Positions 8,746-35,459 of a stretch of 64,000 nucleotides of DNA are shown here, piece after piece. Both the position numbers and the translations under genes were made by a program. Below the pieces are notes generated by a model, which saw only the letters and a program-made list of their open reading frames with translations, had not been told where the DNA came from and did not search any database. The stretch is from NCBI RefSeq assembly GCF_029948125.1, contig NZ_JASAMB010000008.1, forward strand, positions 124,001 through 188,000. The letters run 5' to 3'. Positions within the stretch are counted from its first letter, which is position 1. The number at the start of each line of letters is the position of its first letter. This DNA comes from Catellatospora sp. KI3 (lineage in GTDB: Bacteria > Actinomycetota > Actinomycetes > Mycobacteriales > Micromonosporaceae).

Positions 8746-9267
8746 TCAGGCGTCGGCGACCTCGTCCTCGTAGCGTTCGAGGACCCGCTTGGGCAGGTCG
8801 TGGTTCACGAAGCCGTTGAAGGCGCGGGCTTCGTACCGGTCGGGCAGCAGGGCGCGGACCCGGTCGGGGTAGCCCTGCCCGGCCTGGGCGATGCGCACCA
8901 CGGGCGGCTCGGTCAGGTCCACGGCCACCGGGCCGGAGATGCGCGAGGCGAAGTCCCAGGGCTGCCCCGGCGACCCGGCGGCGCAGAGGTAGTACGCGTA
9001 GACGCGGCGCACCTCGGCGACGGTGCGGGCGTCGACGGGCTCGTAGCCCATCGTCTCGGCGGTACAGATGACGCGGTCGTCGGCCTTGACCTCGTGGCCG
9101 TGGTCGTGGTGCTCGGCCGGGGTGGAAAGTTCCAGCACCTGGGTCACGCGCGCGGCCAGCGCGGCGTCCAGGTCGACCGGGCGCAGCAGCGGGGAGAGGG
9201 CCGCGACCACGGCGAGCGCCAGCAGCTCTGGCAGCACCCACCACGTGTTGCGGCGCAGTGCGGTCAT
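8746..9267 (-). CDS. Hypothetical membrane-anchored protein
   Basis: 173 residues from ATG 9267; upstream in-frame starts up to 9312 exist. One hydrophobic segment at about residues 10-32 (VLPELLALAVVAALSPLL) acts as signal anchor. It is followed by a soluble domain of about 140 residues with two cysteines and a His-rich stretch (AEHHDHGHE). No family is recognised. It sits just upstream of the Gfo/Idh/MocA gene on the same strand, 24 bp apart, possibly co-transcribed. The His/Asp-rich stretch could bind metal, but that is speculation. Confidence 0.6.
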   Translation of the reverse strand: MTALRRNTWWVLPELLALAVVAALSPLLRPVDLDAALAARVTQVLELSTPAEHHDHGHEVKADDRVICTAETMGYEPVDARTVAEVRRVYAYYLCAAGSPGQPWDFASRISGPVAVDLTEPPVVRIAQAGQGYPDRVRALLPDRYEARAFNGFVNHDLPKRVLERYEDEVADA

Positions 9268-31956: not shown

Positions 31957-32700
31957 TCAGCCGCGCCGGTAGAGCAGGTCGAAGATCTGCCGACCGGCGG
32001 CGATGCCGCGCTGCTCGAACTTGGTCAGCGGCCGGTGGGCGGGGCGCGGTGCGAAGCCGTCGTACAGGTTGACCAGGCCCTCGTCGGCGTCGAGCACCTC
32101 GGCCATCTGCTCGGCGTAGTCGGCCCAGTCGGTGGCGCAGTGCAGCACGCCGCCGACGGCCAGCCGCGAGCGCAGCAGGGCGACGGTGTCGGGCTGGATC
32201 AGGCGCCGCTTGTGGTGGCGGGCCTTGGGCCACGGGTCGGGGAAGTAGACGTGCACGGCGTCGAGGCTGCCCTCGGCGAGCATGTGCCGGACCAGGTGCA
32301 GCGCGTCGCCCTGGGCGACCCGCACGTTGGGCAGGTCCTGCGCCTCGGCGACGGCCAGCAGGTTGCCCAGGCCGGGCGGGAAGACCTCGACGGCCAGGTA
32401 GTCGCGGGCGGGGTCGGCGGCGGCCATGGCGGCGGTGGCGTCGCCCATCCCGGAGCCGATCTCCAGTACGAGCGGAGCCCGCCGCCCGTACAGCGCGGCC
32501 TGGTCGATGGGGGTCCACGGTTCGGTGATGTCGACGCCGTAGCGCGGCCACAGCCGGGTCAGCGCGTCCTCGTGCCGCCCGCTCACCCGCCCGCGGCGCG
32601 GGTAGAAGGTGGTGATGCGGGTCAGGTGGCGGCCGTCGGGCAGCACACCGGCCGGATCGGCGGCGTCGGCCACGGCGGAGTCGAGGTCAGCGGAGGTCAC
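31957..32700 (-). CDS. trmB: tRNA (guanine-N7-)-methyltransferase
   Basis: 247 residues. A class I SAM-binding motif LEIGSGMGDA is followed by VYFPDPWPKARHHKRRL, the diagnostic TrmB segment, and TKFEQRG near the C-terminus for tRNA contact. It makes m7G46 in the variable loop of tRNAs. GTG 32700 is chosen because the family begins shortly before PDGRHLTRITTFYPRRG and TATCCT lies 9 nt upstream; the frame is open to 32913 but that extension is Arg-rich and not conserved-looking. It is divergent from the valS leader. Confidence 0.92.
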   Translation of the reverse strand: MTSADLDSAVADAADPAGVLPDGRHLTRITTFYPRRGRVSGRHEDALTRLWPRYGVDITEPWTPIDQAALYGRRAPLVLEIGSGMGDATAAMAAADPARDYLAVEVFPPGLGNLLAVAEAQDLPNVRVAQGDALHLVRHMLAEGSLDAVHVYFPDPWPKARHHKRRLIQPDTVALLRSRLAVGGVLHCATDWADYAEQMAEVLDADEGLVNLYDGFAPRPAHRPLTKFEQRGIAAGRQIFDLLYRRG

Positions 32701-32810
32701 AAGACAGTCAGGATACCAGCGCGACGCGCGGCCTCCATGATCATGGGTGCGCGGGCGGCGGCGCACCGGTACCATCGTGGGCAACGCCGACCGATGCCGA
32801 AGGAGGAGCC

Positions 32811-32876
32811 ATGACCCGCGCGCTCCCCGCATCGACGCTGTCGGTAGTACGCGTAGCCGAACCGGGCCGCGCGTAA
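32811..32876 (+). CDS. valS leader peptide with three GTA valine codons
   Basis: A 21-residue ORF (MTRALPASTLSVV then RVAEPGRA) directly behind AAGGAGGAGCC, one of the strongest Shine-Dalgarno sequences in the window. Its only three valines (positions 12, 13, 15) are all GTA, at 32844, 32847 and 32853; GTA is the rarest valine codon in such GC-rich genomes. The next gene is a valyl-tRNA synthetase. A terminator-like hairpin and a competing stem follow the stop codon. This is the layout of ribosome-mediated transcription attenuation, in which ribosomes stall at valine codons when charged Val-tRNA is scarce. The peptide itself probably has no other function. Confidence 0.75.
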   Translation: MTRALPASTLSVVRVAEPGRA

Positions 32877-32911
32877 TCCTTCGATCACCGCGCCCGACGC
32901 GCGCGGTGGTC
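32866..32911 (+). promoter_or_regulatory. Putative attenuator with alternative stems upstream of valS
   Basis: Terminator-like stem: GATCACCGCGC (32883-32893) pairs with GCGCGGTGGTC (32901-32911), 11 bp with one wobble and a 7-nt loop. Competing stem: the leader's last codons (32867-32873, CCGCGCG) pair perfectly with 32900-32906 (CGCGCGG), which would break the terminator. No U-tract follows, as is common in actinobacteria. The switch model is inference. Confidence 0.55.
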
Positions 32912-32960
32912 ACCCAACCTCTCTCTCGCGTACGGGCGCCATACCCACCGAGGTGAGGTC

Positions 32961-35459
32961 ATGAGCCTTCCGGAGAAGCCCTCGATCGACGGGCTGGCCG
33001 CCAAGTGGTCCCAGCGCTGGGACGCCGACCAGCTGTACCGCTTCGACCGCGCGGCGCCGCGCGAGCGCGTGTTCGCCATCGACACCCCGCCCCCGACGGC
33101 CAGCGGCGCGCTGCACGTGGGGCACGTGTTCTCGTACACCCAGACCGACGTGCTGGCCCGGTTCCAGCGCATGCGCGGGCGCGAGGTGTTCTACCCGATG
33201 GGGTGGGACGACAACGGCCTGCCGACCGAGCGCCGGGTGCAGCACCGGTTCGGGGTGCGCTGCGACCCGTCGCTGCCGTACGACCCGGACTTCACGCCGC
33301 CGGAGCAGCCCGGTCGGGAGCAGGTGCCGGTGTCGCGGCGCAACTTCACCGAGCTGTGCGCCCGGCAGACCGAGCTGGACGAGCGCGCCTTCGAGGAGCT
33401 GTTCCGGCTGGTGGGGCTGTCGGTGGACTGGTCGCTGCTGTACACGACGATCGGCGCGCGGGCGCGGGCGGTGTCGCAGCGGGCGTTCCTGCGGGCGCTG
33501 GCGCGCGGGGAGGCGTACCAGGCGCAGGCGCCGACGCTGTGGGACACCACGTTCCGTACCGCGGTGGCGCAGGCGGAGACGGAGGACCGGGAGCGGCCGG
33601 GGGCGTACCACCGGATCGCCTTCCACCCCGACGGCGCCGCCGCCGAACCGATCATCGTGGCGACCACGCGGCCGGAGCTGCTGCCCGCGTGCGTGGCGCT
33701 GGTCGCGCACCCGGACGACGCCCGCTACGCGCCGCTGTTCGGCACGAGCGTGCGCACGCCCGGCTTCGGCGCCCGGGTGCCGGTGCTGGCGCATCCCCTG
33801 GCCGACCCGGCCAAGGGCACCGGCATCGCGATGATCTGCACGTTCGGCGACGCCGCCGACGTGATCTGGTGGCGCGAGCTGGACCTGCCGACGCGGCCGG
33901 TGCTGGGCTTCGACGGGCGGCTGCTGGCCGAGGCCCCGGCGCACCTGGACGAGAGCGGCCGGGCGGCGTACGCGCGGCTGGCCGGGCTGACCCCCGCCGC
34001 GGCCCGCGAGCAGGTGGCGGTGCTGCTGCGCGAGACCGGCGAGCTACTGGGCACCCCGGAGCCGATCAGGCATCCGGTGAAGTTCTACGAGCGCGGCGAG
34101 AAGCCGCTGGAGATCGTGCCGACCCGCCAGTGGTACGTGCGCAACGGCGGCCGCGACCCTGAGCTGCGTACGGCGCTGCTGGCCCGGGGGCGGGAGCTGA
34201 ACTGGCAGCCCGCGCACATGCGCAGCCGCTACGACCACTGGGTGCAGGGCCTGGCCGGGGACTGGCTGATCAGCCGCCAGCGCTTCTTCGGGGTGCCGAT
34301 CCCGGTGTGGTACCCGCTGGACGCCGACGGGCAGCCCGACCACGGCCGCCCGATCACCCCCGCCGAGGACGTGCTGCCGATCGACCCCAGCTCGGACACC
34401 CCGCCCGGGTACAGCGCCGACCAGCGCGACGTGCCGGGCGGCTTCACCGGCGACCCGGACGTGATGGACACCTGGGCGACGTCCTCGCTCACCCCGCAGA
34501 TCGCGGGCGGCTGGGGCGCCGACGACGACCTGTTCGCGCGGGTGTTTCCGATGGATCTGCGGCCGCAGGCGCACGAGATCATCCGTACCTGGCTGTTCGC
34601 GACGGTGCTGCGCGGCCACGCCGAGCACGGCGCGCTGCCGTGGCGTACGGCCGCGATCGCGGGGTGGATCCTGGACCCCGACCGCAAGAAGATGTCGAAG
34701 TCCGTGGGGAACGTGGTGACCCCGGTGGGGCTGCTGCACGAGTACGGCTCCGACGCCGTGCGCTACTGGGCCGCCGCTGCCCGCCCCGGCGCCGACACCG
34801 CGTTCGACACCGGGCAGATGCGGATCGGCCGCCGCCTCGCGACCAAGATCCTCAACGCCACCCGGTTCGTGCTCGGCCTGGGCGAACCCGCACCCGGAGC
34901 CGCGATCACCGAGCCGCTGGACCGAGCCCTGCTGGCCGCGCTGCGCCCGGTGCTCGCCGAGGCCACCACGGCCCTGGAGCAGTACGACCAGGGCCGCGCC
35001 CTGGCCGCCGCCGAGCGCTTCTTCTGGACGTTCTGCGACGACTACCTGGAGCTGGTGAAGGCGCGCGCCTACGGCGAGCACGGCGCAGCCGCCGCCGACT
35101 CGGCCCGGCTGGCCCTGCGTACCGCCCTGTCGGTGCTGCTGCGGCTGCTGGCCCCGGTGCTGCCGTTCGTGACCGAGGAGGCCTGGTCGTGGTGGCACGG
35201 CGCGAGCATCCACCGCGCCCCGTGGCCCACCCCCGACGAACTCGGCCCCGGGGGCGACCCGGCGGTGCTGGCCGCGGCCATCGAGGCGATCGAGGCGGTG
35301 CGCCGCGCCAAGTCCGAGGCGAAGCTGTCGATGCGTACCCCCGTGTCGGTGCTGACCTTGCCCGACGGCGCCCCGCACGACGCCATCGAGGCCGACCTGC
35401 GCGCCGCCGGCGTGATCCACACGATCACCCGCGGTCCCCGCCTCGCCGTCACGCTCTGA
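32961..35459 (+). CDS. valS: Valyl-tRNA synthetase, short archaeal/rickettsial-like type
   Basis: 832 residues, class I. HVGH at 52-55 and KKMSKSVGN near 575 are the catalytic signatures; an editing domain lies between, and an anticodon-binding helical domain at about 620-790. The N-terminal FYPMGWDDNGLPTERRVQ is typical of archaeal-type ValRS (also in Rickettsia) rather than the usual bacterial form. The long C-terminal coiled coil of bacterial ValRS is missing. The ATG follows GAGGTGAGG. A valine-codon leader peptide and attenuator lie upstream. The genome may also carry a standard ValRS, making this a second, inducible copy; that cannot be seen here. A family D repeat follows the stop. Confidence 0.93.
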   Translation: MSLPEKPSIDGLAAKWSQRWDADQLYRFDRAAPRERVFAIDTPPPTASGALHVGHVFSYTQTDVLARFQRMRGREVFYPMGWDDNGLPTERRVQHRFGVRCDPSLPYDPDFTPPEQPGREQVPVSRRNFTELCARQTELDERAFEELFRLVGLSVDWSLLYTTIGARARAVSQRAFLRALARGEAYQAQAPTLWDTTFRTAVAQAETEDRERPGAYHRIAFHPDGAAAEPIIVATTRPELLPACVALVAHPDDARYAPLFGTSVRTPGFGARVPVLAHPLADPAKGTGIAMICTFGDAADVIWWRELDLPTRPVLGFDGRLLAEAPAHLDESGRAAYARLAGLTPAAAREQVAVLLRETGELLGTPEPIRHPVKFYERGEKPLEIVPTRQWYVRNGGRDPELRTALLARGRELNWQPAHMRSRYDHWVQGLAGDWLISRQRFFGVPIPVWYPLDADGQPDHGRPITPAEDVLPIDPSSDTPPGYSADQRDVPGGFTGDPDVMDTWATSSLTPQIAGGWGADDDLFARVFPMDLRPQAHEIIRTWLFATVLRGHAEHGALPWRTAAIAGWILDPDRKKMSKSVGNVVTPVGLLHEYGSDAVRYWAAAARPGADTAFDTGQMRIGRRLATKILNATRFVLGLGEPAPGAAITEPLDRALLAALRPVLAEATTALEQYDQGRALAAAERFFWTFCDDYLELVKARAYGEHGAAAADSARLALRTALSVLLRLLAPVLPFVTEEAWSWWHGASIHRAPWPTPDELGPGGDPAVLAAAIEAIEAVRRAKSEAKLSMRTPVSVLTLPDGAPHDAIEADLRAAGVIHTITRGPRLAVTL

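Follow-up and report, generated by a model that had tools for sequence, protein, structure and literature searches.

In Streptomyces coelicolor the gene for TrpRS1, an indolmycin-resistant auxiliary tryptophanyl-tRNA synthetase, is reportedly controlled by an attenuator, as Vecchione and Sello are said to have described in 2010. In translational attenuation of the erm type, stalling of the ribosome during translation of a leader peptide exposes a sequestered Shine-Dalgarno (SD) sequence, and selective charging of tRNA isoacceptors is reportedly the subject of work by Elf et al. in 2003. Candidate trpS2 and leuS attenuators in Streptomyces are given in the accessible portions of Seliverstov et al. 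2005 (PMC1262725), in whose main text the word valS does not occur. Selective charging theory is treated by Elf and Ehrenberg 2005 (PMC1183508), and also in PMC2891978, and the cases in the available sections of these articles are E. coli leaders and biosynthetic pathways; in the excerpts of PMC5794164, valS is the name of a suppressor strain. No valyl-tRNA synthetase (ValRS) attenuator was described in the literature searched, which was covered mostly below full-text level.

Here we analysed a 64,000-nucleotide stretch of DNA from Catellatospora sp. KI3 (the window; all coordinates are window positions on the + strand), in which a short open reading frame (ORF) with three valine codons precedes a valS gene. 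We read this region as a ribosome-mediated attenuator through which a shortage of valyl-tRNA induces an auxiliary ValRS, and we put the probability of this reading at roughly 0.78. The locus resembles S. coelicolor trpRS1 in combining an actinomycete auxiliary synthetase gene, a short leader with cognate codons and, as we propose, ribosome-mediated attenuation, and it differs in the amino acid (valine), in the alt_ValS type of the enzyme, in lacking a U-tract and in the near-restriction of its structural gene to a single valine codon. As in erm systems, a stalled leader ribosome would expose an SD sequence here, but the signal would be uncharged tRNA-Val rather than a drug-bound ribosome. With Streptomyces trpS2 and leuS, as presented in the accessible portions of PMC1262725, it shares a leader peptide, an antiterminator and a hairpin before an actinobacterial synthetase gene, whereas the trp and leuS attenuator hairpins given there have poly-U after them. 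Unlike the E. coli cases in the available sections of PMC1183508 and PMC2891978, the gene concerned is here that of a synthetase and the codon split is near-total.

A leader ORF with three valine codons precedes a second valS gene

The leader ORF (32811-32876) has 21 codons, encodes MTRALPASTLSVVRVAEPGRA followed by a stop, and is preceded by an SD sequence, AAGGAGGAG (32800-32808), that contains GGAGGAG in 11/11 genomes of the genus. Everything that the first-pass annotation had listed here was found on direct reading, namely the 21-codon ORF, its strong SD, the hairpin discussed below and three GTA valines (32844, 32847 and 32853), which are the only valine codons of the ORF. The regulatory codons GTA-GTA-CGC-GTA (32844-32855) are hereafter termed Val1, Val2, Arg and Val3. 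GTA had also been called rare, and among 626 ORFs, picked mechanically by GC3 from 864 kb, or about a tenth, of the genome, valine is indeed encoded by GTG in 50%, GTC in 46%, GTA in 2.8% (571 of 20204) and GTT in 1.4% of cases.

The next gene (32961-35459; SD GAGGTGAGG at 32950-32958) is a valS, as had been proposed, and its product is a full-length ValRS that scores 1394.5 bits against NCBIfam alt_ValS (NF000540; cut-off 900) and 565 bits, under the cut-off of 612.1, against TIGR00422. We therefore refer to it as an auxiliary ValRS of the alt_ValS/PRK13208 type. The suggestion that it might be a second ValRS also proved right, with a canonical ValRS (TIGR00422, 1017 bits) encoded on another contig of the 8.2-Mb genome. 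The NCBIfam alt_ValS model is of the type 'exception', a label likewise borne by the MupA/MupB resistance models. Upstream of the leader and valS lies a divergent Methyltransf_4 gene, which we take to be of the TrmB type, and downstream of valS lies a transglycosylase/transpeptidase gene. A search for a T-box riboswitch was negative, with no Rfam family at its gathering threshold across the whole window.

In an 11-genome alignment the best-conserved stretch 5' of the leader is a candidate -10 box, TACCAT (32770-32775; genus consensus TA[CTG]CAT), and transcription would start just 5' of the leader; a promoter scan gave no full sigma-70 match at this box. In leader-bearing genomes of three other genera (G028, G051 and G026) TANNAT stands 7 nt 5' of the leader start codon, which places the leader to be translated first, and this spacing suggests that its mRNA is probably of the leaderless kind. 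Leaders of the window's genus have a strong SD, whereas those at L207, L208 and L209 have a -10-like box 7 nt from the start. In G028 and G026 (L207 and L209) the leader start GTGACACA is complementary, allowing G-U pairs, to a TGTGTC[AG]T sequence 3' of the hairpin.

Conservation, distribution and descent of the leader

All 11 genomes of the genus contain the auxiliary ValRS, and the leader stands directly before its gene in 11/11 (the G009 valS, split into L099 and L100, was counted once). The peptides of the genus read MTHxLxxSFVVRVADSGRA in eight genomes and MT[RH]ALPASTLSVVRVAEPGRA in three, and a covariance model detected leaders ahead of the same valS in G028 (VTHHLQAVVRVADQGRA), G051 (MTHRQAVVVRVPNKGRA) and G026 (VTHTFQAVVRVANSGHA), each of these peptides being followed by a stop. 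Orthologous leaders, the search for which in Micromonosporaceae the first-pass annotation had set as a test, are thus found throughout the genus and in three more genera, or in 14 of 354 genomes and four of 44 genera of the family. The family is placed as Micromonosporaceae by the valS locus of one member (L302, genus g4), which over 2478 bases shows no difference from that of Micromonospora sp. PLK6-60 (L078).

In the genus alignment a 6-nt indel leaves the leader in frame and its stop alternates between TAA and TAG, and the sequence is mostly conserved from the SD through the valS start and little conserved 5' of the TA[CTG]CAT box. Within the leader the N-terminal half is freely variable while the 3' half has hardly changed even at wobble bases, and VVRV is kept at the amino-acid level in 14/14 leaders. 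A small conserved protein gene that chances to precede valS, with no part in regulation, would also have a clear SD and in-frame conservation across the genus, but this uneven distribution of changes, and covariation in a hairpin that lies outside the ORF, argue against it and we regard it as highly improbable.

Searches with covariance model R1 returned 30 loci, 21 of which (L205-L225) were checked by tblastn; this valS is present at five, namely in the window, in G008 and in the three other genera, and absent from 16. Model R2, run on 394 genomes of the class with stricter filters that weak leaders may escape, returned, apart from the genome of the window itself, a single weak match (G361, L240), with no further case; judged by eye, neither this match nor a weak R2 match within the family (G018, L239) is such a leader. 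The 99 orthologues outside the leader-bearing set (80 named loci and 19 family loci) have no such leader by ORF scan and model R2. The latter was run on these 99 loci and L089 because an ORF scan that requires an SD could miss SD-less leaders of the type seen in G028, G051 and G026; besides L089 there were nine matches, the best at 20.5 bits (E 0.034), and not one lay just upstream of valS on the same strand, the upstream sequence being shorter than 400 nt at two of the 99 loci (150 nt at L023 and 184 nt at L130). In none of the 11 genus genomes did a similar ORF scan find a recognisable leader before the canonical valS. A site at window position 8989 with one mismatch to GTAGTACGCGTAGCC was attributed to chance, there being 36 matches at two or fewer mismatches against 57 in a reversed control.

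A tree of 48 ValRSs, covering the first ~515 columns, places the 14 leader-bearing genes in one clade (100/100), which makes the co-occurrence of the leader with the GTG-rich gene described below a single event, even if a well-maintained one. Proteins at the extremes of this clade share 64-70% identity. The valS genes of G028, G051 and G026 nest within the genus clade (97/89), which suggests that the leader-valS cassette was transferred horizontally between genera, and these three genomes also carry a canonical-type ValRS. By eye, the sequence 5' of the cassette differs in at least two of L207, L208 and L209.

Leader and valS use different valine codons

Beyond the first-pass account, we observed that valS is nearly purged of all valine codons but GTG. 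Its 51 valine codons comprise 49 GTG and two GTC, with no GTA or GTT, and this GTG share ranks first among 365 ORFs with at least 25 valine codons (next 0.78; binomial P 5e-13); elsewhere in the gene, G/(G+C) at four-fold sites is an unremarkable 0.54. The 11 orthologues of the genus have GTG at 531 and GTA at 0 of 576 valine codons, and those of the three other leader-bearing genera have GTG at 42/50, 45/47 and 46/52. Overall, the GTG share is 84-96% in the 14 leader-bearing orthologues (L089-L099 and L283-L285) compared with 13-79% in the 99 leaderless ones (median 0.42), among which the highest value belongs to L070, where the other four-fold sites are also unusual (0.70). Further, the third base is invariant in 31 of 36 valine columns of the genus valS alignment compared with 141 of 370 four-fold columns overall. 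A GTG bias general to valine genes was considered and rejected, with GTG at 12/27 in ilvC and 23/47 in ilvD over matched stretches and a share of 0.44-0.67 in the canonical valS of the genus. The 11 auxiliary ValRSs of the genus are also somewhat valine-poor, at 5.9-6.5% against a median of 7.8%, although eight of the 99 leaderless orthologues overlap with this range.

In the leaders the 44 valine codons are, by contrast, 35 GTA, eight GTC and one GTG, with GTA at Val2 and Val3 in 14/14 and at Val1 in six, the other eight having GTC there. The genome has one tRNA-Val gene each with anticodons UAC, GAC and CAC, as counted over 60 of 61 tRNA matches (C14:2049 was left out). This codon split fits selective charging, with sensitive codons in the leader and insensitive codons in valS. 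GTA at Val2 is confounded, because its A is also needed by the stem 1:2 described below, and GTA at Val3 is free of this confound because its A is unpaired. The first-pass annotation had the leader sense tRNA-Val(UAC); with GTC at Val1 in 8/14 leaders and only the GTA of Val3 confound-free, this isoacceptor in particular may or may not be the one sensed.

The conservation of VVRV as amino acids might also mean that the valines matter as peptide, in an arrest peptide responsive to a ribosome-targeting antibiotic, with valS as a stress gene, and short hydrophobic motifs do occur in erm leaders. Conservation extends to the third base, however, with Val2 and Val3 never departing from GTA, and the cognate gene downstream together with its near-GTG-only coding points to tRNA supply, which leaves an arrest peptide improbable even with a valS among the WhiB7 binding targets of M. 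abscessus given in the available part of PMC10727445.

Mutually exclusive helices are predicted from the valine codons to the hairpin

Three helices with overlapping arms are predicted from the regulatory codons onwards. The first, a protector stem (1:2), pairs 32848-32858 with 32865-32875 (-17.0 kcal/mol; in 11/11 genus members) and thereby joins the Val2-Arg-Val3-Ala codons to the last codons and stop of the leader, a pairing absent from the first-pass account. The second, a candidate antiterminator (2:3), pairs 32863-32878 with 32883-32896 at -15.9 kcal/mol here and -14.6 to -15.9 kcal/mol in 11/11 genus members. The third is hairpin H (3:4), in which 32883-32893 and 32901-32911 form 11 bp at -21.1 kcal/mol, with a range of -21.1 to -25.5 kcal/mol across the genus. 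In the three other genera the corresponding energies are -13.9 to -17.0 (1:2), -12.2 to -16.9 (2:3) and -18.2 to -27.9 kcal/mol (3:4). This mutually exclusive 1:2, 2:3, 3:4 chain, with the cognate codons in segment 1, is predicted in 14/14 leaders, and its energies allow a kinetic attenuator. It had earlier been proposed that H competes with pairing between CCGCGCG (32867-32873) and 32900-32906; the two sequences are complementary, but we rejected this 2:4 pairing as the main antiterminator, as it competes with the closer and longer 3:4, is impossible before segment 4 is transcribed and looks weaker than the pairing of segment 2 with the 5' arm of the hairpin.

Across the 14 leaders (11 distinct), 99.1% of cells in 1:2 and 3:4 are paired. 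Covariation in the stems, which the first-pass annotation had set as a further test, was seen in H, where two pairs have two-sided changes (G-C/A-U/G-U and C-G/U-A); the covariation score was reached by 0/500 shuffles and the number of pairs with two-sided change by 63/500, in a comparison where kinship of the sequences can beat shuffles even without structure. Of the 10 pairs of helix 1:2, eight never vary, one changes from U-G to U-A and one is broken in G051, and covariation is hardly a test of a helix so nearly invariant.

The description of H as terminator-like held for the hairpin itself but not for a terminator, since no T-run follows it. A terminator scan of 32600-33100 found none, and in the 12 nt 3' of H in the 14 leaders there are at most four T in eight, the longest T run is 2 and there is no U-tract. 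Because a U-tract was looked for and is absent, we do not label the region a classical transcriptional attenuator; of the classical attenuation layout that had been proposed, ribosome-mediated attenuation is retained as the working principle and the U-tract is not.

Downstream of H we identified a second feature that the first-pass annotation had not included, a candidate SD-sequestering helix (5:6) between ACCUC/UCUCG (32917-32928) and CGAGGUGAGGU (32949-32959). The valS SD is paired in the minimum free energy (MFE) structure of the post-H segment in 14/14 leaders, with arms that differ between genera, and the energy of this segment beats shuffles by 2.6 s.d. in G010, the best case, and not at all in G028. 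A conserved CGGGCGCC element (32933-32940; CGGG[CT]GC in 12/14 leaders) lies in the same segment, and this CGGG[CT]GC(C) element is complementary to GCGCC[CT]G within H (GCGCCCG in the window).

Simulated folding varies with the position of the stalled ribosome

In equilibrium folding H was formed in most states with no clean switch, and footprint-based SD accessibility behaved likewise; with the ribosome at the stop codon, H was lost in 4/11 leaders (G000, G008, G009 and G003), the window's included, which counts against the attenuator reading. As equilibrium folding gave no switch, we ran a co-transcriptional simulation with energy barriers, in which rearrangements take place only under the energy barrier and the ribosome masks the RNA as far as 12 nt from the first base in the A-site. 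The set comprised eight distinct leaders of the genus, the near-copies G001, G002 and G009 being left out.

With a barrier of 8.5 kcal/mol and a footprint of 12 nt, H was absent in 8/8 leaders when the A-site was one codon before Val1 or at Val1, Val2 or Arg, and present in 8/8 at -4 and -5 codons from Val2 and from +4 to the stop. Intermediate positions at this barrier gave H in 4/8 at -3, 2/8 at Val3 and 6/8 at +3, and positions further upstream gave 5-7/8, with 0/2 at the first codons of two longer leaders. Over six settings (barrier 7.5-10, footprint 10-14) a stall at Val1 left H in 0/8 leaders in five and 4/8 in one, and a stall at Val2 left it in 0/8 in four and 5/8 in two. For the Val2 stall, a barrier of 7.5 gave H in 5/8, repeat runs at a barrier of 10 scattered (3/8 versus 0/8), and at a barrier of 6 the switch failed, with H in 5/8. 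Outcomes of Val3 stalls were mixed and likewise varied with the settings. Ribosome-free leaders formed H in 3/8 at a barrier of 6 and 6/8 at a barrier of 9. Among runs for the three other genera, 13/15 at Val1 and 8/15 at Val2 lacked H and 15/15 at the stop had it, and G026, when stalled upstream, often formed neither helix in the simulation.

As a null, we synonymously recoded the codons from Val1 to the stop and scored the full pattern, which is H at -5, -4 and +7 and none at Val1 and Val2. It appeared in 1, 12, 6 and 11 of 60 recoded versions of four leaders (30/240), and in 4/4 runs of each of the four natural leaders. The simulated dependence on stall position is unusual, though not exclusive to the natural codons, and, limited by its dependence on the settings and by the recoding null, the evidence from co-transcriptional folding is moderate.

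A range of effective stall positions, and the 1:2/2:3/3:4 topology with its -17.0, -14.6 to -15.9 and -21.1 to -25.5 kcal/mol, would suit transcriptional attenuation at a U-less or Rho-dependent terminator formed by H, on the model of S. coelicolor trpRS1. Against it, poly-U tracts are part of the trp and leuS attenuators published for actinobacteria (PMC1262725) and the present locus has none; we give it somewhat less than an even chance, about level with the SD control considered next.

Simulation also addressed the valS SD, which had a mean unpaired fraction of 0.45 with the ribosome at Val1, 0.51 at Val2 and 0.30 at the stop; comparing Val2 with the stop in 11 leaders, exposure was higher in seven, lower in three and equal in one. 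These values bear on a purely translational, erm-like switch, in which H would be a spacer or switch that terminates nothing and a stall at the valine codons would expose the valS SD. That all 14 leaders lack a U-tract 3' of H, that the SD is paired in every post-H MFE structure despite the differing arms and that stalls favour an SD-freeing 4:5 pairing in part of the runs all speak for such a switch, but exposure rises at Val2 in just 7/11 leaders and the sequestering helix may be no better than shuffles or at most 2.6 s.d. better, and we give it somewhat less than an even chance.

Proposed mechanism and significance

In the attenuator reading that we prefer, ample Val-tRNA would allow the leader ribosome to reach the stop and cover segment 2, so that, as folding predicts, H (3:4) forms; with H formed, segment 5 would be available to pair with the valS SD (5:6), switching the gene off. 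When Val-tRNA is scarce, a stall at Val1-Val2 would open 1:2 and segment 2 would pair with segment 3 before segment 4 is transcribed. With H prevented, segment 4 may pair with segment 5, and valS would be transcribed and/or its SD freed. Confidence in the predicted stall-dependent prevention of H is moderate, and in the predicted freeing of the valS SD weak. For the off switch, we weigh termination, SD occlusion or both about evenly.

A cell starved in this way still has to translate the valS mRNA, whose valines are spelled almost entirely with GTG. The leader avoids this codon, which, from wobble rules and selective-charging theory, would be read by both tRNA-Val(CAC) and tRNA-Val(UAC). We lean slightly towards the view that leader and gene form an 'emergency synthetase' cassette. 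Its leader would rely on GTA (and GTC), codons read by the tRNAs that are uncharged first, and its ValRS gene would have been stripped down to GTG, a codon read by tRNAs that stay charged, so that the enzyme is induced by shortage and can still be translated. A bolder form of this proposal is that the cassette answers an attack on the valine isoacceptors UAC and GAC rather than a general valine shortage.

Selective-charging theory states which isoacceptors keep their charge in starvation, and the near-disjoint valine codons of the leader and valS amount to a natural synonymous-site test of it. For the widespread second ValRS of these genera, the attenuator predicts a role as an enzyme that would be made once valyl-tRNA is exhausted, for example when an inhibitor acts on the housekeeping ValRS.
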